This document shows, in pieces, positions 24,027 to 48,074 of a stretch of 64,000 nucleotides of DNA. Below the pieces are notes generated by a model that had not been told where the DNA came from, did not search any database, and was given only the letters and a program-made list of their open reading frames with translations. The position numbers and the translations under genes are program-made. The DNA comes from Sideroxydans sp. (GTDB lineage Bacteria > Pseudomonadota > Gammaproteobacteria > Burkholderiales > Gallionellaceae): positions 1-64,000 of the forward strand of contig JARCRQ010000093.1 in assembly GCA_029850585.1 (NCBI GenBank), read 5' to 3'. Position 1 is the first letter of the stretch. Every line of letters begins with the position of its first letter.

Positions 24027-25061
24027 ATGCCTAATACCCTCCCCCTCACCTTTGAAAGCCTGTCCACCGCGATTGTTCTGGTGGACAACCAGGCGCGCAT
24101 CGCCTACCTCAACCCTGCTGCCGAAAATTTATTCGAGCTGAGTCGCACCCAGCTACTCGGTCACGCCGTGTTACAGGTGTTCACTCATACCGAGCAACTC
24201 GCCAGTGCCATGCAGCAAGCCTTGCACGCTCGCGCCAGTTTTATCGAGCACGACATGCTGCTAGGCACACCCGCGCAGACCAAACTGCATCTGCGTTGCG
24301 CGGCGACCCCACTCGATACACAAGGCTTGTTGCTGGAGTTTCATTTGATGGATCGCACCCTCAAACTGGCGCGCGAAGAGCAGATGTTGGATCAGACTCA
24401 AGCGAATCGTTTGTTGCTGCGCAACCTCGCGCACGAGATTAAAAATCCACTCGGCGGGATACGCGGCGCGGCGCAATTATTGGAACAAGAATTCGACAAA
24501 CCCGCCTTGCGTGAATACACCCAAGTCATCATTCAAGAGGCGGATCGCTTGCGCGGCTTGATGGAAAAATTGCTCACGCCGCAAACCCGTGTGCAACACA
24601 GTGCAGTGAATATCCACGAAGTATTAGAGCGCGTGCGCAGCGTGGTACTGGCGGAATTGCCCGATGGTTTAAGCATTCAACGCGATTACGACATCAGCTT
24701 GCCGCCGCTGATAGGCGACAAAGAACAGCTTATCCAAGTGATGCTCAACATTGTGCGCAACGCCGCGCAAGCCATGGGTGGCTGCGGCAGCATCATTTTG
24801 CGCACCCGTATCGCGCGACAAATTACGCTGATACGCCGTCGTCATCGCCTAGCGATTTTGGTTGAAATTATCGACAACGGTCCTGGCATCGCCGCCGAAT
24901 TACGCGACACCATTTTTTATCCGCTGGTATCTGGACGCGCCGATGGACATGGCTTAGGTCTGACGCTGGCGCAAGATTTTGTCAGCCAACATCAGGGCAC
25001 GATTGCTTTTGAAAGCGAAGTCGGACGGACCTGTTTTAGCGTCATGCTGCCCTTGCCTTAA
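24027..25061 (+). CDS. glnL: nitrogen regulation sensor kinase NtrB
   Basis: Cytosolic histidine kinase/phosphatase that controls NtrC under PII. 344 residues: PAS domain (residues 8-110; VLVDNQARIAYLNPAAENLF), HisKA with LLRNLAHEIKNPLGGIRGAAQLLE (His near 138), then HATPase: N box MLNIVRNAAQAM, G1 EIIDNGPGIAAELRDTIFYPLVSGRADGHGLGLTLAQ. No membrane helices, as expected. 34 bases before ntrC. Confidence 0.95.
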   Translation: MPNTLPLTFESLSTAIVLVDNQARIAYLNPAAENLFELSRTQLLGHAVLQVFTHTEQLASAMQQALHARASFIEHDMLLGTPAQTKLHLRCAATPLDTQGLLLEFHLMDRTLKLAREEQMLDQTQANRLLLRNLAHEIKNPLGGIRGAAQLLEQEFDKPALREYTQVIIQEADRLRGLMEKLLTPQTRVQHSAVNIHEVLERVRSVVLAELPDGLSIQRDYDISLPPLIGDKEQLIQVMLNIVRNAAQAMGGCGSIILRTRIARQITLIRRRHRLAILVEIIDNGPGIAAELRDTIFYPLVSGRADGHGLGLTLAQDFVSQHQGTIAFESEVGRTCFSVMLPLP

Positions 25062-25095
25062 CCGCAAAGTTTTTGAATTTACCTAAGGATTTTTA

Positions 25096-26490
25096 ATGAA
25101 TTCAGTTTGGATTATTGACGACGATCGTTCGATACGTTGGGTGCTGGAAAAATCTTTGACGCGTGCGGAAATCGACTTCAAAAGTTTTCCGAGCGCGGAT
25201 GATGCGCTGCTCGAACTAAAACGCGGCGTGCCGCAAGTGGTGGTGAGCGACATCAAAATGCCAGGCAGTTCGGGCTTGGATTTTTTGCAGATATTGCATG
25301 AAAAATATCCGCTGATTCCCGTAATTATTATGACTGCGTATTCTGATCTAGACAGCGCGGTGTCAGCCTTTCAGGGCGGCGCGTTCGAGTATTTGCCTAA
25401 GCCTTTTGACATCAATCACGCGGTCGAACTCATCGTGCGCGCTTTGGCGCAAAGTCAGCGCAAAGCCAGTGAAGCTGAGGCGGCGGTGGTGTCTAAGGAT
25501 ATTTTGGGACAAGCCCCCGCCATGCAGGAAGTGTTTCGCGCCATTGGTCGCTTGGCGCAGTCGAATGCCACGGTGCTGATTAACGGCGAATCTGGCACGG
25601 GTAAAGAGCTAGTGGCGCAAGCCTTGCACCGCCATAGTGCGCGCGCCGCCCAGCCGTTTATCGCCATCAATACCGCCGCGATTCCTAAAGATTTATTGGA
25701 GTCCGAACTGTTTGGACATGAGCGCGGCGCGTTCACGGGTGCGGCCGCCACACGGCAAGGACGCTTTCAACAAGCCGAAGGCGGCACGTTATTTTTAGAT
25801 GAAATTGGCGACATGCCCGCCGAATTGCAAACGCGTTTATTGCGCGTGTTATCGGACGGCAGCTATTACCGCGTCGGCGGCCAACAACCCATCAAAGCCA
25901 ACGTGCGCATCATCACCGCGACCCACCAAGATTTAGAAGAACGCGTCAAACAAGGCTTGTTCCGCGAGGATTTATTCCACCGCTTAAACGTTATTCGCTT
26001 GCGCTTGCCGCCGCTACGCGAACGTCGCGAAGATATTCCCTTGTTAGCGAGTTTTTTCTTACAAAAAAGCGCGCGCGAATTGGCGGTGGCAGCGAAACAA
26101 TTTAGCGCGGCAACCTTGCAGCATCTGAGTCAGCAAGACTTCCCTGGCAACGTGCGCCAGCTAGAAAATTTATGTCATTGGTTGACCGTGATGACGCCGT
26201 CGCAAAGTATCGAAATATCAGATTTGCCGAATGAATGGCGCAGCGAAAGTGTCATCGTGGCGAGCGGCGATTGGAGCGAGCAGTTGGCACAACACGCCAC
26301 CAGCGCGTTGCAACGTGGCGACGAAGGCATCATGGACCACCTCACCCAGCAGTTTGAGCGCACCCTGATTTTGCAAGCCTTGCAACACACCCACGGCAGA
26401 CGCATCGAAGCCGCGACGCTGTTAGGCATAGGGCGCAATACCTTGACCAGAAAGATTCAGGAATTGGGGCTGGATAGCAAAGACGAATAA
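25096..26490 (+). CDS. glnG: nitrogen regulation response regulator NtrC
   Basis: Sigma-54 activator for nitrogen genes. 464 residues: receiver domain (SVWIIDDDRSIRWVLEKSL, phospho-Asp in VVSDIKMPGSSGLDFL near residue 54), AAA+ domain with GESGTGKELVAQALH, GAFTGA and GGTLFLDEIGDM, and a Fis-type C-terminal HTH (ALQHTHGRRIEAATLLGIGRNTLTRKIQEL). The porin-glnK-amtB promoter in this window (37.8-38.0 kb) carries a fitting site. Confidence 0.97.
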   Translation: MNSVWIIDDDRSIRWVLEKSLTRAEIDFKSFPSADDALLELKRGVPQVVVSDIKMPGSSGLDFLQILHEKYPLIPVIIMTAYSDLDSAVSAFQGGAFEYLPKPFDINHAVELIVRALAQSQRKASEAEAAVVSKDILGQAPAMQEVFRAIGRLAQSNATVLINGESGTGKELVAQALHRHSARAAQPFIAINTAAIPKDLLESELFGHERGAFTGAAATRQGRFQQAEGGTLFLDEIGDMPAELQTRLLRVLSDGSYYRVGGQQPIKANVRIITATHQDLEERVKQGLFREDLFHRLNVIRLRLPPLRERREDIPLLASFFLQKSARELAVAAKQFSAATLQHLSQQDFPGNVRQLENLCHWLTVMTPSQSIEISDLPNEWRSESVIVASGDWSEQLAQHATSALQRGDEGIMDHLTQQFERTLILQALQHTHGRRIEAATLLGIGRNTLTRKIQELGLDSKDE

Positions 26491-38012: not shown

Positions 38013-39187
<1,175 letters not shown>

Positions 39188-39354
39188 GGGCATCTCGCAA
39201 AACCCAAATTTCTTCGCGATGCGTTGTTGCTCACAAAAAATTACTCCTTACATAGCCATCTATCCCCAGCCAAAGCACCTGAGGACAAGTGCGTCGTCGT
39301 AATTTTTTGTTCGCGCCTAGCCTCACTTCGATATTTGAATTTTTCGAGACACCC
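39188..39354. repeat. dispersed long palindrome, copy B
   Basis: Outer arms GGGCATCTCGCAAAA and TTTTTCGAGACACCC pair imperfectly; inside, TCACAAAAAATTACTCCTTACATAG and AATTTTTTGTTCGCGCC match copies A and C. The loop is longer than in the others (CCCCAGCCAAAGCACCTGAG insertion). Lies between glnK and amtB. Confidence 0.83.
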
Positions 39355-39391
39355 TAGAAAATTTTTTATTTAAGTAATTGGAGAGAAAAAC

Positions 39392-40897
39392 ATGTCAAAA
39401 CTCATTGCTTCAATGCTGTTACTGGCTGCTTTGTGCGGCTTGTCAGCGCCCGCTTTAGCGGAAGATGCCGCAGCGGCTAGTGCTACTGCAAGTGTGGCGG
39501 CGGTCGCTGATGCAGCTCCCGCTGTTGCAGCACCTGTTGCTGCCGACCCTGCTGCCGCAGCCGTTGTTGCCCCCGTGCCGAACAAAGGCGATACCACTTG
39601 GATGCTGGTCGCCACTTTGCTGATGATTATGATGTCAATTCCAGGCTTGGCGTTGTTCTACGGCGGCTTGGTGCGCAGCAAAAATATGCTGTCTATCCTC
39701 ATGCAAGTATTCAGCATCTTCGCGCTGATTATGGTGTTGTGGGCGATTTACGGTTACTCGCTGGCATTCACTACAGGCAACGCATTTATCGGCGGCTTTG
39801 ATAGATTGTTCCTGAAAGGCATTTTTGACCCCGTCACTGGCTCGGTTACCAATGCGGCAACCTTCAGCAAAGGCGTCGTGATTCCTGAGTTTGTGTTCGT
39901 AGCATTCCAAGCGACGTTCGCGGCGATTACCGTGGCGTTAACAGTCGGTGCTTTTGCCGAGCGTATGAAGTTTGGCGCGGTGTTGTTGTTCTCAGCGTTG
40001 TGGTTCACTTTCGCTTACTTGCCTATCGCGCACATGGTTTGGTTCTGGCAAGGTCCAGATGCTTACACCACTCAAGCGGCGGCTGACATTGCCAATTCGA
40101 CGGCAGGTTGGTTGTTCCAAAAAGGCGCGTTGGATTTTGCGGGCGGCACAGTGGTACACATCAATGCAGCGATTGCAGGTTTAGTCGGTGCATTCTTAAT
40201 CGGCAAACGCGTTGGCTTAGGCAAAGAAGCAATGGCTCCGCACAACCTCGTTATGACCATGATTGGTGCGTCATTGCTGTGGGTGGGCTGGTTCGGTTTC
40301 AACGCAGGTTCAGCATTAGAGGCAGGTGGCACAGCAACGTTGGCTTTCGCTAACACTTTGATTGCCACAGCCGCAGCGGTATTGACTTGGATGGCAGCGG
40401 AATGGCTGTTGAAAGGCAAGCCTAGCTTGTTGGGCGCAGCATCAGGTGCGGTAGCAGGCTTGGTCGCGATTACGCCTGCTTGCGGTTGGGTTGGTATCGG
40501 TGGCGGCTTAGTCATCGGCGCGCTGTCTGGTGTGGTGTGTTTCTGGGGCGTAACAGGCTTGAAGAAATTGCTCGGCGCAGATGATGCACTCGATGTATTC
40601 GGCATCCACGGCATCGGCGGTATCTTGGGCGCGTTGCTGACTGGCGTGTTCAACACTTGGAGTATGGGCGGCACCGGCATCGTTGATTATGTAAACAACA
40701 AAATCATCGACACCGAAATCGGCGCGCAAGTTTGGATACAAGCACAAGCGGTATTGACCACCCTAATTTGGTCAGGCGTGGTGGCATTTATCTGCTACAA
40801 ACTGGTGGATTGGACGATCGGTCTGCGCGTTACAGTTGAAGAAGAACGTGAAGGGCTGGACACTGCATCACACGGTGAACGTGCTTACAACCTCTAA
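39392..40897 (+). CDS. amtB: ammonium transporter
   Basis: 501 residues. Signal peptide MSKLIASMLLLAALCGLSAPALA, then an Ala-rich linker of about 50 residues, longer than usual, before the 11-helix core. Landmarks: GLALFYGGLVRSKN, AHMVWFW, DFAGGTVVHINAAIAGLVGA with the first pore His, and DALDVFGIHGIGGILGALLTG with the second. Paired with glnK, which can plug it when nitrogen is plentiful. Confidence 0.96.
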   Translation: MSKLIASMLLLAALCGLSAPALAEDAAAASATASVAAVADAAPAVAAPVAADPAAAAVVAPVPNKGDTTWMLVATLLMIMMSIPGLALFYGGLVRSKNMLSILMQVFSIFALIMVLWAIYGYSLAFTTGNAFIGGFDRLFLKGIFDPVTGSVTNAATFSKGVVIPEFVFVAFQATFAAITVALTVGAFAERMKFGAVLLFSALWFTFAYLPIAHMVWFWQGPDAYTTQAAADIANSTAGWLFQKGALDFAGGTVVHINAAIAGLVGAFLIGKRVGLGKEAMAPHNLVMTMIGASLLWVGWFGFNAGSALEAGGTATLAFANTLIATAAAVLTWMAAEWLLKGKPSLLGAASGAVAGLVAITPACGWVGIGGGLVIGALSGVVCFWGVTGLKKLLGADDALDVFGIHGIGGILGALLTGVFNTWSMGGTGIVDYVNNKIIDTEIGAQVWIQAQAVLTTLIWSGVVAFICYKLVDWTIGLRVTVEEEREGLDTASHGERAYNL

Positions 40898-41128: not shown

Positions 41129-41410
41129 ATGCATGTCAACAATGATCAGTTATTTGCCGTACTTGGACGCGTGTATGTGTTGTTGCGCCGCGAAACGCAT
41201 CGCATGATTGATGTGGAATGGGCGGTCGTGAACACCGACTACGCACTCGAAGTCATACACCTGGCACGCAACACCAAAAATTCTGATTTATTGGCGTTAG
41301 CTAATCAAATTCAACTACTGCACCCGCAAATTAAACGTGACCCAAGCGCAGCCGATAGCGTCAACGAAGCAAGCCCCGCACCCGACAAGTATTTCCAAAC
41401 CCTGCGTTAA
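41129..41410 (+). CDS. small protein of unknown function
   Basis: 93 residues, MHVNNDQLFAVLGRVYVLLR and a mainly helical, soluble sequence with a charged tail (KRDPSAADSVNEASPAPDKY). Not recognised. AGGAG lies eight bases before the ATG, so translation is likely. It stands alone after a terminator, 111 bases before the solute-binding gene. Confidence 0.7.
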   Translation: MHVNNDQLFAVLGRVYVLLRRETHRMIDVEWAVVNTDYALEVIHLARNTKNSDLLALANQIQLLHPQIKRDPSAADSVNEASPAPDKYFQTLR

Positions 41411-41521: not shown

Positions 41522-42796
41522 ATGTTGAACCTCGTCAGAATTTTTGTGTTATTCATCAGTTGCTGCGGCGTGGCGGCGAATGCGCGCGCCATCGACCTTG
41601 AGTTGTATTTTCCAGTCGCGGTGCAGGGTTCGATTGCGACAACCCTGCAAACACTCATTGACCAGTTTGAACACGACTATCCCGACATTCACGTCACGCC
41701 GGTGTACGCGGGAACCTATCAAGATGCCTTAGCCAAAACTTTATTGGCACAGAAAAATGGCAAGCCACCTGCCTTGGCGGTGCTGTTCGCCGCTGATGTT
41801 TACACGCTGATAGATGCACACGCCATCGTGCCGTTTGAAGAAGTGATGACCGCTAACCATGCGTCTTTGCCCGCCTTCTTCCCTGCCCTGATGAGCAATA
41901 GCCGCGTGGCGGGCAAGACTTGGGGCATCCCATTTCAACGTTCCACCATTTTGTTGTATTGGAATAAAGCCATGTTCCGCGAGGCGGGCTTAGACCCCGA
42001 CCATGCGCCGCAAAATTGGCAGGAAATGACGCGCATCGCGCAGCAGCTCACGCGCAAAAATAATAAACAACAGCTCATCCGCCACGGCATCGAAATCCCT
42101 GCCACGGGCTTTGCCTATTGGCTGCTGCAAGGCATGGTGACGGGGCGCGGGGCGCGCTTGATGAACGATACGGGCACGCAAACTTATTTCGATGACCCGC
42201 AAGTGATTGCCGCCTTAAACGATTGGGTTGCGCTGTGGCAAAACGGCAATGCGCAGCCCGAAAAATTGACCGAATGGGGCGACGTCAGCGAAGATTTTCT
42301 GCGCCATAAAACTGCCATGATGTGGACGACTAGCGGCAATTTAACGCGCTTGCAACGTCGCGCTAAATTTGATTTTGGCGTGGCGATGTTGCCTGGCACA
42401 GGCTGGCACGGTTCGCCCACGGGCGGCGGCAATTTGTATTTACTGGAAGGCACAAGTCCTGAGCAACAACGTGCTGCGCTGACCTTGGTGCAGTGGCTGG
42501 TATCGCCGCAACACACAGCGCAATGGAGCATCGCGTCGGGCTATATCGCGGTGAATCCTGCGGCGTATCAGACCGAATTGATGCGCGCGCACCTAGCAAA
42601 ATACCCCGCCGCCGAGCTGGCAAAAAATCAGCTCGAATTCGCCGTACCCGAACTCTCTACTCACTTTAATCAGCGCGTCACGCGCGCCCTCAACGACGCG
42701 ATTGTCTCCGCCTTAACGGGCGAACAATCCGCGCAAAGCGCATTGCAACAAGCGCAATCCCGCGCAGTGAAAATTTTGCTACCTTACCAACGATGA
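41522..42796 (+). CDS. periplasmic solute-binding protein (UgpB-like)
   Basis: 424 residues. Signal peptide MLNLVRIFVLFISCCGVAAN-ARA, then family 1 extracellular solute-binding features: IDLELYFPVAVQGSIATTLQ, FEHDYPDIHVTPVYAGTYQD, GIPFQRSTILLYWNKAMFRE, NWQEMTRIAQQL and GGGNLYLL. UgpB relatives bind glycerol-3-phosphate. No permease or ATPase genes are adjacent; instead its stop overlaps a histidine kinase (ATGA), which suggests a sensing rather than transport role. Confidence 0.87.
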   Translation: MLNLVRIFVLFISCCGVAANARAIDLELYFPVAVQGSIATTLQTLIDQFEHDYPDIHVTPVYAGTYQDALAKTLLAQKNGKPPALAVLFAADVYTLIDAHAIVPFEEVMTANHASLPAFFPALMSNSRVAGKTWGIPFQRSTILLYWNKAMFREAGLDPDHAPQNWQEMTRIAQQLTRKNNKQQLIRHGIEIPATGFAYWLLQGMVTGRGARLMNDTGTQTYFDDPQVIAALNDWVALWQNGNAQPEKLTEWGDVSEDFLRHKTAMMWTTSGNLTRLQRRAKFDFGVAMLPGTGWHGSPTGGGNLYLLEGTSPEQQRAALTLVQWLVSPQHTAQWSIASGYIAVNPAAYQTELMRAHLAKYPAAELAKNQLEFAVPELSTHFNQRVTRALNDAIVSALTGEQSAQSALQQAQSRAVKILLPYQR

Positions 42797-44502
42797 AAAC
42801 TGCCCCGCACCAATTACGCCGCGCATGGGCAAAACTAGCCAGCCCTTTTTGGCATGGGCGCGAATGGCAAGTATTAAGTTGGCTGGTGCCTATCGTGGTG
42901 CTGCTAATAAGCCTGATGGTGGCGCAGCGCATCAACCAACAACAGGCGCAAGACGTAGCACGCGATAGCGCGGCAGATTTTGCCGTGCGGGTGCGCGAAA
43001 CGGTGGGCATTTTTCAAGAGCGCATGGCGAATTACCAGCAAGTGTTGCGCGCCACGCAAAGCCTATTTTCCGCCTCGGACTCGGTCGATGCGGCTGAATT
43101 TAGCCGTTTTATCGAACGCAGCGAACTGTATAAGCTACGCGGCTTGCAAGGCATCGGCTATGCACAACTCAAGGCTGACCAAAGCAGCGAAGTGCGTTAT
43201 GACGTATCGTTTAATCGCCCCGCCGAGCCGTTTGTCGGCATGGATTTTTTTGCTCAACCGTCGCGTCGTCCTGCTTGGCAATATGCCCGCGATACTGGGC
43301 TGTTGGCGATTAGCAACAAGCTGCCCTTGCCCGACGAAAATCCCCGCAAAATTGCGGGAGGCTATCAAATGGTATTACCGATTTATCGCAATGCCACTGA
43401 GCAAAACAGCCTAGACGAGCGCGCCAAAAATTTGCAGGGCTGGGTGTATGCGCGCTTTAGCATGGACGGTTTAATCGAAGGCATTTTGGGTGAGCGTCCC
43501 AACATTGCCATCAGCATTCTCGACGGCTCTGAGCCGCAAACTTTATCCAGCGAACAAGAGCGCGTCGGCGGGGAGTCGGACTTGGCGTTATTGATAGCCA
43601 ACAAGCCCGTCGAAATCGGCGCGTACCAATGGACCATTGTGGCGCAATCGTTGCCCAATCTCGCCCCCACCACCGCCATGCAAGAGCTGCAAGAACATCG
43701 CCACACGGGCTGGCTGCTCAGCGTGATTCTCGCGTTATTGAGCTGGTTGTTTGTGCGTTGGCGGATGCGCGTGTTGCGCCACGAAAGCCTGTTGCAAGCG
43801 GCTAAAGCCGATGCCGAACACGCCAACCTTGCCAAGTCCAAATTCCTCGCTGCCGCCAGCCACGACTTGCGTCAACCGATACACGCGCTGTGTTTATTTT
43901 TAGACGTATTGGGCGGCACGACACTGAACACACAACAGCAAAAATTACTCGCGCAAATTCGCCTCGCATCGGATGCCACCAACAACATGCTCAACACTTT
44001 GTTGGACTTTTCGCGCATCGAAGCGGGCGCGGTCGAAGCCCGTCCGCACGACTTTGCTTTGCAAAAATTATTTGTCGCAGTCAGCAATGATTTTCAATCG
44101 CAAGCCGCCAGCAAAGGCTTGCGCTATCGGATGCGCAACACCCGCGTCAACGTGTATTCCGATCCGATGTTGTTAGAAATGATGCTGCGCAATTTGGTCT
44201 CCAACGCGCTGCGTTATACCCCACGCGGCGGCATTTTGTTGGCATGTCGGCAGCGCGGCAACGAGGTGATTATTGAAGTGTGGGACAGCGGTATCGGCAT
44301 TGCGCCTGAGCATCAAGAAACGATTTTTCACGAGTTTCAACAACTCAATAATCCCGAACGCAATCGCGATAAAGGGATGGGCTTAGGCTTGGCGATTGTG
44401 CAAGGACTGGCGCGCACCTTAGACCATCCGCTCACCCTGCGCTCGCGGCTGGCACAGGGCAGCGTGTTTCGTATTACCGTGCCGTTGGCGCGCCAACCTT
44501 AG
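42793..44502 (+). CDS. CHASE-domain sensor histidine kinase
   Basis: 569 residues. TM1 at about 29-49 (VLSWLVPIVVLLISLMVAQR), periplasmic CHASE domain (about 80-280; SRFIERSELYKLRGLQGIGY, FNRPAEPFVGMDFFAQPSRR), TM2 at about 312-330, HisKA with KFLAAASHDLRQPIHALCLF (His near 358), and HATPase: NLVSNALRYTPRGG, WDSGIGIAPEHQETIFHEFQ, KGMGLGLAIVQGL. No receiver domain and no response regulator nearby. It is coupled to the solute-binding protein, which may deliver its signal. Confidence 0.92.
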   Translation: MKTAPHQLRRAWAKLASPFWHGREWQVLSWLVPIVVLLISLMVAQRINQQQAQDVARDSAADFAVRVRETVGIFQERMANYQQVLRATQSLFSASDSVDAAEFSRFIERSELYKLRGLQGIGYAQLKADQSSEVRYDVSFNRPAEPFVGMDFFAQPSRRPAWQYARDTGLLAISNKLPLPDENPRKIAGGYQMVLPIYRNATEQNSLDERAKNLQGWVYARFSMDGLIEGILGERPNIAISILDGSEPQTLSSEQERVGGESDLALLIANKPVEIGAYQWTIVAQSLPNLAPTTAMQELQEHRHTGWLLSVILALLSWLFVRWRMRVLRHESLLQAAKADAEHANLAKSKFLAAASHDLRQPIHALCLFLDVLGGTTLNTQQQKLLAQIRLASDATNNMLNTLLDFSRIEAGAVEARPHDFALQKLFVAVSNDFQSQAASKGLRYRMRNTRVNVYSDPMLLEMMLRNLVSNALRYTPRGGILLACRQRGNEVIIEVWDSGIGIAPEHQETIFHEFQQLNNPERNRDKGMGLGLAIVQGLARTLDHPLTLRSRLAQGSVFRITVPLARQP

Positions 44503-45073
44503 CCCGCCGACGCGCATCTTGCAGCAGCGCAAGCAGCGCATAGCCAGCTAACAGCGGGTCAATTAAATAATCCCACGCATTGCTTGATTCATACGCGCCC
44601 AAGCACCACGCCAGCGTCGCGAGTGCGATGCTCAAAACGATTAAATTGGACTGCCGCCACCATGTCAATAATGCAACCAGCAACACCACGCTGAAAAATC
44701 CTGCATCGCCATAACCCAAGCGGTACGGGTCATACAGGGTGACACCTAAGGTCATGGGATAAAAAATCAACGCCACCAGCGCGATAAGTCGCAACAGGTG
44801 CAGCCGCGATTTTTCACTGACCAAGATGCCGTAAGGTCGCAGTATCGCGAGCCCAATTAACAGCACACTGCTGATGCTGAAATCGCCCACCATGCCGCGC
44901 GTGTAGCCCGCTAAGGGCAAGCCGTTTAAAGGCACTAAGGCGAATATAAAAATCGCTGCGAGCAGCAGACTGATACGCGGCAAACTCAAGCGACGCACAG
45001 CGGGGACGAGTAAGGCGCAGGCGGCAAGCGCGCTGGCGTGTCCGCATAATCCAGTGACATCGGTGAGCATCAT
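44474..45073 (-). CDS. membrane protein of unknown function
   Basis: 199 residues with about six hydrophobic segments (ASALAACALLVPAV, ISLLLAAIFIFALVP, ISSVLLIGLAIL, LLRLIALVALIFYPM, SVVLLVALLTWW, LIVLSIALATLAWCL). Not recognised. Starts in an ATGA overlap with the sialidase-like gene, so it belongs to that operon; its end overlaps the kinase gene tail by 29 bases, convergently. Confidence 0.75.
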   Translation of the reverse strand: MMLTDVTGLCGHASALAACALLVPAVRRLSLPRISLLLAAIFIFALVPLNGLPLAGYTRGMVGDFSISSVLLIGLAILRPYGILVSEKSRLHLLRLIALVALIFYPMTLGVTLYDPYRLGYGDAGFFSVVLLVALLTWWRQSNLIVLSIALATLAWCLGAYESSNAWDYLIDPLLAGYALLALLQDARRRAKVGAPTAR

Positions 45074-46344
45074 GGCGTGTCCTTGATGTGCTTTTCTTGC
45101 AACTGATTTTCCAGCCAAGCGTGATTGAATTGGACGTGCTTAATCAAGCCGCGATTCCAGGTATAGACCAGCTGAAAATCGCCGCGCTGAGTCTGGATTA
45201 AATACGGATAAGAAAACTCAAAGTCGCATAAGGCGGGACATTTATTGCGCTGCGCGGTCGCCGCAAAAGCCGCGCCATCCGTGACGTTCGCGTCGCTTGC
45301 CACTGCCAGCTGCGCAGTGCGTTGCGCAAATTGTTCGACACTCACCACCACATCGCTCTCATGCTCAAATTCATAAACGCTGCGCCAGTTCATGCCGCTG
45401 TCGCTAGACAGCATTAACGACAAGGCATGGCGACCGACTTCGAGATTATTCAGCACCGCCAGCATCCGCCCATCCGCCAAGCTCACCGCCGTCAACGCCG
45501 CATCAGGATTGGCGATGGTGAGCTTAGTCGGCACGCTCCAAGTCTGTCCGCCGTCCTGTGTGCGCGTGGCAATCACACGCTTAGGCGGCGCGTTGGTGTG
45601 GCGCATTAACACCGTGGCGTGCTCGCTATCGGTGATGAGCAGCACGGGTTGGATGCCCAGTTTGCCGTTGCTCAAGCGTTGTTTATCCAACACCGTGCCA
45701 TCCGCCGAGAGCCGCAACAGCTCGCCAAATTTGCCTAAAAATTCGTGATACACAGGCAAGCCCAAGCTGCCATCCGCATAGCTAAACGGCGTGCCTTTAA
45801 TCAGCGTGCTGATGTTGAAAAACGGTGAGGTAATTAGGCGGCGCGGCGTGTCCCAACTCGCCCCTTCGTCGTGTGAAGTGATAAAAGAAATTGAGCTGCC
45901 CGCCCAGCCGCCTAGCGACACCGTCACAAAATATAAAACCAACGTCCCGTCGGCGCGCCTTGCCGCAACAGGGTTGCCGAGCTTCTTCACATAACGCCAC
46001 ACGCCTTGCTGGGTTTGCTCGCGATTGATAACCGTCTGCTCTGCGCCCCAGTTTTTGCCGTCAAACACCGCGCTGCGTAACGTCACATCTTGTGCACCTT
46101 CGCGACTGCCTGCGAACCAAAATGCGCGCAATTTTCCATCGTTTAACTCAATCAGCGAGGCGGCGTGCGTGGCGATATTTAATTGGTGCGAGACAAACGC
46201 GCTGTGCAAAAAAGCGGGCGTTACGTCGGGCGTAATCGCAGCGATTTGAAAGCCGTTCGGCACACTGCGCTGAGTAATTTTTTGCGCAGCAAGCACGCTC
46301 GCTAACACCAGCAAAGCTAATAAAAATAAGCGTACGCGCATCAT
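45070..46344 (-). CDS. sialidase-like (BNR repeat) exported protein
   Basis: 424 residues with an N-terminal membrane or signal segment (LFLLALLVLASVLAAQ). Six-blade propeller features: LRAFWFAGSREGAQDV, and Asp-boxes SHDEGASWDTP, TQDGGQTWSVP, SSDSGMNWRSV. FADGSLGLPVYHEF and FSYPYLI are further conserved parts. The family cleaves or binds glycans; whether sialic acid is the substrate is unknown. It is coupled to a GT39 gene upstream (TAATG), which hints at work on a surface or lipid-linked glycan. Confidence 0.82.
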   Translation of the reverse strand: MMRVRLFLLALLVLASVLAAQKITQRSVPNGFQIAAITPDVTPAFLHSAFVSHQLNIATHAASLIELNDGKLRAFWFAGSREGAQDVTLRSAVFDGKNWGAEQTVINREQTQQGVWRYVKKLGNPVAARRADGTLVLYFVTVSLGGWAGSSISFITSHDEGASWDTPRRLITSPFFNISTLIKGTPFSYADGSLGLPVYHEFLGKFGELLRLSADGTVLDKQRLSNGKLGIQPVLLITDSEHATVLMRHTNAPPKRVIATRTQDGGQTWSVPTKLTIANPDAALTAVSLADGRMLAVLNNLEVGRHALSLMLSSDSGMNWRSVYEFEHESDVVVSVEQFAQRTAQLAVASDANVTDGAAFAATAQRNKCPALCDFEFSYPYLIQTQRGDFQLVYTWNRGLIKHVQFNHAWLENQLQEKHIKDTP

Positions 46345-48074
46345 TAGCGACATTGCTCCGCAAGCGTTAAGGCGGGCAGATTCGCCAGCGTGGCGGTGGA
46401 TTGCAACAGCACTTCGCGCACGAATAAATACTCAAAAAATTTGCCGTGCAGCAACATTTCCTTGAGCTCCGCCGAGCTTTGTCGACCGCGTATATCCAAG
46501 CGTTGTCCGATGATTTTGCAGTCCGCGCATAAGCTCGTTTGCACGTCTTGCTGGAGCGGAATTTGCACGGCAAACCACGCATAACGCTGGGCTAATTGCG
46601 CGGCATCGAAATGCAGATTTTCGTGATAAGCAGTGAGCTGGGTGTGCGGTAAGAGGAATTGATAACGCTCGTCTGACGCACGAAAGTCGCACGGCACCGC
46701 CACAGTTTTGCCTTGCAGCGCAGCTTGCGTGGCGGCGTTATAAATCGCCAACTGCGTATCAAAGGGACGCAACAAAGCAGCAAAACTAAGCAGCACTAAC
46801 AAGCCCGCAATCGGTGTGGCATCGCGTGTGAGACGTGGCACAAACAGCGCGACCAGCACCCAGATAAAACTGCTACACAACAGCATCCAGAAACCCGCCG
46901 CGTATAAATGAGCGTCGCCGATTGCGCTTTGCAAGCGCGCTGCCAGCATGGCTAAAGCCAATAAAAATAAGCCCGCCAAGCACAAGGTCGCGACGAAAAA
47001 TTTGCGACTAATCGCTTGCCAATTCAGTGCTGCAAGCAATGCGAGGGCGGGCATCGCAGCTAATAAGTAACGTCCTGAGCGTTGGCTAGGTAAGGCGAAG
47101 CTGATAAAAAATGCGGCTATCCACAACCACAATAATTGCTCGTCACGCGTGAGGCTGTGACGTTTTTGCCAAGCCGTCACGCACACGCCGATGACGACAA
47201 AAGTGAGCAGCCCCGCGTTGCTTAAAAACGCCGCACTGTAGCTCCAGATACTCGAACCACCCCACCACAGTTTCGCCACATAGCTGCCGCCATGCGGGTC
47301 GAATTTGCCTGCGTTTTCGCCGATGACAAACTCCTGCCAGACCGCGCGGGGGTTGGGGTCTAGCGCGAACCACAAAGCAAAAATTGCCACCGCCATGCTG
47401 ATGCTAATGACAATTTTTAAGGCATCGCGACGCACAAAAACGGCTAAATAAAAATCGCGTTCGCGCCAATACCAAGCCGCTAAAAGCAACGTCATCGGTA
47501 AACCTAGCGCGAAGGATTTATACAAAAACGCCATGCCTATGCTGAGACCAAAAAATAGCGGCAACAGGTAGCGCGATTGGAAACTGGTGCGCCAATTAAG
47601 TAGCGCGAATACAGGCAAGCTCAGCCAAAAAACTTCCGCTGCGTTGGTGAGAAAAGGTCGTCCGAAACGATAAGTGCTGAAGAATGCGAGGAAGGTCAAC
47701 GCGGCGATAAACCCTGTTGAGACTTGCCTAGTGAGCCGCCATGCCGTGAGCAACAGCAAGGCAGCGGTGAGCAAAGTGTAGAACACCGACGGCAAACGCA
47801 GCGCAGTTAAATCCCAGTTTTTGCCGCCGTTGGAGCTTGCGATACCTTGCCAAAACAACAGCGGCGGTTTGGTGTTACGCATGTTGTCGAGCTGCGATTG
47901 CAGCGGCAAATAATCGCCGCTGGCAGCGGTTAGACGGGTGATATGCAGATAGACGTTTTCGTCGCCATTTTTCGGAATGTACTGGCTATCCAGCGCGTAA
48001 AAATAAGTCGTTATCGCCAGCAACAGCGCGGCAATCAGCCCTGCCAGCCGAACCTTATTTTGCCGCGTCGTCAT
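46344..48074 (-). CDS. GT39-family (ArnT/PMT-like) glycosyltransferase
   Basis: 576 residues, many membrane helices. ALDSQYIPKNGDENVYLHIT has the acidic loop residues near the first helix; NTKPPLLFWQGIASSNGGKN, LRLPSVFYTLLTAALLL, GRPFLTNAAEVFW, FLYKSFALGLPMT and PSQRSGRYLLAAMPALALL fit the ArnT-like group. Such enzymes move a sugar from a polyprenyl phosphate donor to lipid A or another envelope target. Overlaps gtrA by 20 bases. Confidence 0.88.
   Translation of the reverse strand: MTTRQNKVRLAGLIAALLLAITTYFYALDSQYIPKNGDENVYLHITRLTAASGDYLPLQSQLDNMRNTKPPLLFWQGIASSNGGKNWDLTALRLPSVFYTLLTAALLLLTAWRLTRQVSTGFIAALTFLAFFSTYRFGRPFLTNAAEVFWLSLPVFALLNWRTSFQSRYLLPLFFGLSIGMAFLYKSFALGLPMTLLLAAWYWRERDFYLAVFVRRDALKIVISISMAVAIFALWFALDPNPRAVWQEFVIGENAGKFDPHGGSYVAKLWWGGSSIWSYSAAFLSNAGLLTFVVIGVCVTAWQKRHSLTRDEQLLWLWIAAFFISFALPSQRSGRYLLAAMPALALLAALNWQAISRKFFVATLCLAGLFLLALAMLAARLQSAIGDAHLYAAGFWMLLCSSFIWVLVALFVPRLTRDATPIAGLLVLLSFAALLRPFDTQLAIYNAATQAALQGKTVAVPCDFRASDERYQFLLPHTQLTAYHENLHFDAAQLAQRYAWFAVQIPLQQDVQTSLCADCKIIGQRLDIRGRQSSAELKEMLLHGKFFEYLFVREVLLQSTATLANLPALTLAEQCR

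Follow-up and report, generated by a model that had tools for sequence, protein, structure and literature searches.

Gene organization of the locus

The analysed window, 64,000 nucleotides of contig JARCRQ010000093.1 of Sideroxydans sp. (GCA_029850585.1), contains two consecutive genes of the forward strand, identified by ORF and Pfam analysis: a gene for a UgpB-like solute-binding protein (SBP) of the SBP_bac_8 family and CUT1 type (positions 41522–42796, 424 amino acids), and a gene for a CHASE sensor histidine kinase without a receiver domain (positions 42793–44502, 569 amino acids). The stop codon of the first and the start codon of the second overlap in the sequence ATGA (42793–42796), which suggests translational coupling. 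A reading made previously from the sequence alone, hereafter the sequence-only reading, had described the pair as sharing ATGA and as fused by overlap; the overlap was found as described, but the two proteins are encoded by separate ORFs, and there is no fusion. The SBP ORF has an alternative in-frame start codon, GTG, 60 nt upstream of position 41522.

Neither a transporter gene nor a response regulator gene adjoins the pair, in agreement with the sequence-only reading, and the sole REC protein encoded on the contig is NtrC-like (25096–26490); an NtrB/NtrC-like pair is located at 24027–26490 (+). Upstream lie a PII-like gene and amtB (38822–40897, +), and for a 93-aa ORF between amtB and the SBP gene (41129–41410, +) no match was found in Pfam or NCBIfam. 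Genes of the opposite strand are located downstream, including those for a BNR-repeat protein (sialidase-like fold) and a PMT-type glycosyltransferase (44474–48074, −); they converge on the kinase gene, and the first ORF of this region overlaps its 3′ end by 29 nt. The SBP and kinase genes have a GC content of 0.55 and GC3 of 0.63–0.64, similar to several neighbours, so that the composition gives no sign of a recent import of the pair. The scan for promoters and terminators and the Rfam search gave nothing informative.

Distribution of the gene pair

From a genome-contig collection, the 80 top-ranking relatives of the SBP were taken, and their neighbours were checked by tblastn. A UgpC-like and/or UgpA-like gene is present beside the SBP gene in 79 of them; the exception is L107 (Betaproteobacteria RYN_558), where the SBP gene is immediately followed by a CHASE kinase gene and overlaps it by ATGA, as in the window. 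Within the order, the SBP subfamily (E ≤ 1e-80) was detected in 29 of 399 genomes, with UgpC- and/or UgpA-like neighbours in 26. In the remaining three, namely, the genome studied here, G044 of the same genus and G172, which represents the same locus as L107, the SBP gene is located directly upstream of a CHASE kinase gene, in G044 after a short gap. All three SBPs of the order that do not accompany a transporter thus precede a CHASE kinase, i.e., the pair is conserved as a unit, as the sequence-only reading had proposed to check. At E ≤ 1e-40, the SBP was found among 158 genomes of the family only in the genome studied here and in G044. No further pairs were detected among the best-scoring sensors fetched in the class and phylum draws, and the top matches of plasmid searches are annotated as transporter SBPs or GGDEF/CHASE proteins. 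The pair, represented by three loci in total in genome collections that were sampled and not exhausted, is rare and patchy in distribution, and within the collections searched the SBP is accompanied by importer genes in some genomes and by a CHASE kinase in the others. Found again in two further genomes, the adjacency of SBP and kinase is not attributable to chance.

Permeases of the BPD_transp_1 family in the genome are four in number and, judging by sequence and gene order, are represented by PstC and PstA, encoded beside PstS and PstB, and by a Dpp/Yej-type pair. Permeases of the UgpA/UgpE or MalF/MalG kind were not found in this genome (95.7% complete). A role of the SBP as a subunit of a UgpABCE importer was accordingly rejected, the cognate permease genes being neither adjacent nor found in the genome, and a cognate importer elsewhere in this 95.7% complete genome was considered and rejected, its only permeases being of the Pst and Dpp/Yej types. 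None of these transporters looks able to use the SBP, an outcome on which the sequence-only reading had made its proposal depend.

Solute-binding protein

The SBP matched SBP_bac_8 (PF13416) with an E-value of 1.3e-40, and a hydrophobic segment resembling a signal peptide was revealed at its N-terminus by hydropathy. The best fold matches of its AlphaFold model (pLDDT 88.5) are E. coli UgpB, a dinucleotide-binding protein and M. tuberculosis UgpB, which binds glycerophosphocholine. The earlier designation 'UgpB-like' is therefore correct at the level of fold, but does not extend to the UgpB equivalog NF008211, against which the protein scored 157 bits at a cut-off of 411. Assignment of the protein as UgpB itself was rejected on this score and on the changed glycerol contacts.

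Of the phosphate-contacting residues of UgpB listed in PMC12718374, Tyr64, Ser143 and Tyr342 have identical counterparts in the SBP (Y66, S141 and Y341), and Ser266 is replaced by Thr; of those that contact glycerol, Gly303 is conserved and Glu88, Arg393 and Trp191 are substituted. UgpB Trp188 is also changed, and at this position the SBP of the window has His188, whereas 90 of 106 relatives have Trp. Because the phosphate contacts are largely kept and the glycerol contacts mostly lost, the ligand of the SBP probably contains phosphate, judging by three to four residues. The transporter relatives depart from UgpB at Glu88, Arg393 and Trp191 too, and hence strict binding of glycerol-3-phosphate is improbable for the subfamily as a whole. 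The importer-linked SBPs of the subfamily (loci L038–L117 and L174–L199) lack Glu88 and Trp191 and mostly lack Arg393, which makes their usual annotation as glycerol-3-phosphate binders doubtful.

The paired SBPs share residues L144, S271 and I342, each located beside a pocket position, which occur rarely or not at all in 106 transporter SBPs. In the tree built with UgpB of E. coli and Phaeobacter as the outgroup, the long-branched paired SBPs were placed at the base, and the analysis was therefore rerun without the outgroup; in the resulting tree the three paired SBPs lie on one side of a branch with support of 57/84, favouring a single origin. Identity among the paired SBPs is 48–53%, compared with a median of 71% for transporter SBPs, and this higher divergence would fit a release from the permease.

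CHASE sensor

The kinase belongs to the CHASE family (PF03924; E-value 2.3e-23, 83.4 bits at a cut-off of 25). The first transmembrane segment comprises residues 26–44 (42868–42924, hydropathy of 2.37 over 19 residues), and the second, placed by eye, probably lies at approximately residues 303–321. The Pfam-matched part of the CHASE domain, residues 142–249 (43216–43539), corresponds to profile positions 75–183 of 189. PcrK and AHK4 are the best sequence matches of this domain and are among the best fold matches of its low-confidence model (pLDDT 55.7), calculated from an alignment of two sequences only.

The three sensors linked to an SBP form one clade with support of 100/98 among 43 sensors of the order and class, a set selected by a profile that was built from these three sensors. 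The interval Gly122–Gly149 (43156–43239), where loop lengths were compared, is the site of a deletion common to them: it has 27, 33 and 32 residues in the three sensors, 27 being the value for the window, 53–56 residues in the 40 sensors without an adjacent SBP, i.e., with none in the approximately 1.5 kb fetched beside each sensor, and 54 residues in nine more from the phylum draw. Accordingly, the three SBP-linked sensors lack approximately 21–27 distal CHASE residues that every one of the 49 sensors without an adjacent SBP retains, and the distal domain of the window sensor is incomplete. Residues A87, F106, N175 and Y278 are common to the three; at these positions, G (38), Y (40), G (36) and H/R/Q (38), respectively, are found in the other 40 sensors. 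In our alignment, residue 174 of the window corresponds to Thr278 of AHK4, located in the floor of the pocket (PMC3491891), and N175 adjoins it. The deletion site precedes the listed hydrogen-bonding residues of AHK4 in sequence, and for this reason the segment lost is likely to have lain above the pocket, with the hydrogen-bonding contacts of the AHK4 type spared.

Kinase core and putative output

The kinase core is represented by HisKA (residues 347–412, 43831–44028; Pfam E-value 1.9e-14), with the phosphoacceptor His357 in the motif SHDLRQP (codon 43861–43863), and HATPase_c (residues 457–566, 44161–44490; E-value 1.9e-22). No remnant of a receiver was seen in the three forward frames downstream. 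With the model of NahK/ErcS-family hybrid kinases, NF041832, the protein scored 266 bits, below the cut-off of 400, matching in the kinase part only and having no receiver. The core is 45% identical to that of L107 and 30% to that of G044, while its identity to a kinase of the same genus with another sensor is 62%; the kinase of L107 bears a receiver, and that of G044 bears PAS, receiver and Hpt domains. Since the sensors form one clade but the kinase cores are unlike, the SBP and the sensor appear to have remained associated through changes of the output part.

Lacking a receiver domain, the kinase of the window would need a response regulator from another locus to pass its signal on. The search for orphan regulators suggested in the sequence-only reading yielded candidates: among the REC proteins in whose fetched flanks a kinase was not detected are the NarL-type regulators C30:19812 and C12:61308. 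The NarL-type regulator C100:12152, which lies beside related kinases, is the best match in the genome (37%) to the regulator encoded beside the closest relative of the window kinase. These three regulators are considered candidates only. In the region G000:C100:11846-14630, two NahK-like kinase matches, one with an in-frame TAA, are located beside a NarL-type regulator.

Two HD-GYP proteins, one with a GAF domain and one with Tll0287-like and PAS domains, are encoded after the pair of G044 (L122:1071-5370), and an EAL-domain gene downstream of the pair of L107 (L107:9531-10062) is present in fragments only, possibly frameshifted. Because of these downstream genes, c-di-GMP is a possible output in G044 and L107; nothing comparable to HD-GYP or EAL genes was found beside the pair of the window.

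Proposed function of the pair

The SBP is very probably a ligand receptor dedicated to the CHASE sensor, the pair being the input half of a three-component system, and its ligand probably contains phosphate. The SBP, which is related to the SBPs of UgpABCE-like importers, would be exported to the periplasm, where it would bind a small and probably phosphate-containing ligand and, depending on this ligand, dock on the CHASE domain of the kinase encoded by the overlapping gene, the SBP thereby reporting its own state. Upon docking, autophosphorylation of the kinase would change, in whichever direction. The suggestion of the sequence-only reading, that the SBP serves the kinase as a ligand receptor in the manner of LuxP and LuxQ, is supported by the recurrence of the pair, the missing permease, the sensor clade and the common deletion, as a likeness of working and not as membership. 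A partnership of this kind also has a raised prior, since 10 of 11 characterised SBP–kinase couples are encoded adjacent to or near each other (PMC11113362).

The SBP could instead serve an importer that is lost, missing from the assembly or shared, or be its remnant, with an incidental place before the kinase gene. The SBP has its nearest relatives among importer subunits, and in an assembly that is 95.7% complete a permease could be missing. However, no permease of the UgpA/MalF type was found in the genome, the reading frame and most pocket residues of the SBP are intact, and the pair is also present in two further genomes, its sensors there belonging to the same clade and sharing the deletion, which makes this explanation very unlikely. 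Direct sensing is also unlikely: the CHASE domain would bind its own small ligand, as the domains of AHK4 and PcrK themselves bind cytokinins (PMC3491891, PMC7072313), and the SBP would only improve or add to the response or act on something else in the operon. It is consistent with the capacity of CuaSR to perceive its signal without CuaD, although less efficiently (PMC10384115). What argues against it is that the loss of approximately 21–27 distal CHASE residues is confined to the three SBP-linked sensors, and that residue 175, beside the position aligned with Thr278 of AHK4, is Asn in all three but Gly in 36 of the 40 others.

If the SBP is the receptor of the sensor, the shortened distal domain of the latter points to a transfer of ligand recognition to the SBP. 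The SBP and the CHASE sensor would then have been inherited together as one input module, with the kinase core behind them exchanged. The broader proposal, namely, that an SBP plus a shortened CHASE domain make up a portable module, moved as a unit between kinase cores, in which recognition was ceded to a captured SBP of the importer type for a phospho-compound, is one to which we give about even chances.

Some sensor kinases heed a binding protein rather than the molecule itself, which is one reason why most have no known signal; for the kinase of the window, the likely partner is indicated by gene order. The short CHASE deletion may mark SBP-using sensors and could help to find others among CHASE receptors of unknown ligand. 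In the literature searched, the coverage of which is incomplete and does not prove absence, no demonstration of a canonical CHASE receptor acting via an SBP was found.

Comparison with known systems

UgpB of the UgpABCE importers shares the superfamily and fold with the SBP of the window, in which its phosphate contacts are largely kept; the differences are the absence of a permease, a kinase as the partner and the changed glycerol contacts. In contrast to the sensor of the window, PcrK of Xanthomonas and AHK4 of Arabidopsis bind cytokinins directly, and the papers cited name no SBP partner, although an unidentified periplasmic molecule was suspected for PcrK (PMC7072313). At the deletion site, the PcrK CHASE domain, whose structure is solved, contains an additional segment of 27 residues, compared with 4 in the three SBP-linked sensors.

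In Pseudomonas aeruginosa, the SBP_bac_8 protein PA4985 is likewise encoded near a kinase, AruS, with a sensor annotated as CHASE5 (PMC11113362). CHASE5 is, however, another and smaller domain (110 aa), and the cluster includes a regulator gene; insolubility of the AruS sensor prevented the test of PA4985–AruS binding (PMC11113362).

LuxP/LuxQ and TorT/TorS resemble the pair in that a periplasmic binding protein is the ligand receptor for a sensor kinase (PMC8534201). Their sensor domains are of other types, LuxQ having a tandem PDC and TorS an all-alpha domain (PMC8534201), whereas that of the window kinase is CHASE. Against the LuxQ family model the kinase scored 133.6 bits at a cut-off of 1200, in the kinase part only. 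LuxP and TorT belong to an SBP fold family other than that of the SBP of the window.

In CuaD/CuaS/CuaR of Ruminiclostridium cellulolyticum, a second SBP gene, not involved in transport, adjoins a two-component system (PMC10384115). CuaD binds the sensor kinase CuaS and is a dedicated sensor SBP beside a separate transport SBP (PMC10384115). It differs in being a cellobiose SBP with a response regulator alongside and regulated transporter genes nearby, neither of which is adjacent to the pair of the window. On the best reading, the pair would work like LuxP/LuxQ, TorT/TorS or CuaD/CuaS while belonging to a system distinct from these.
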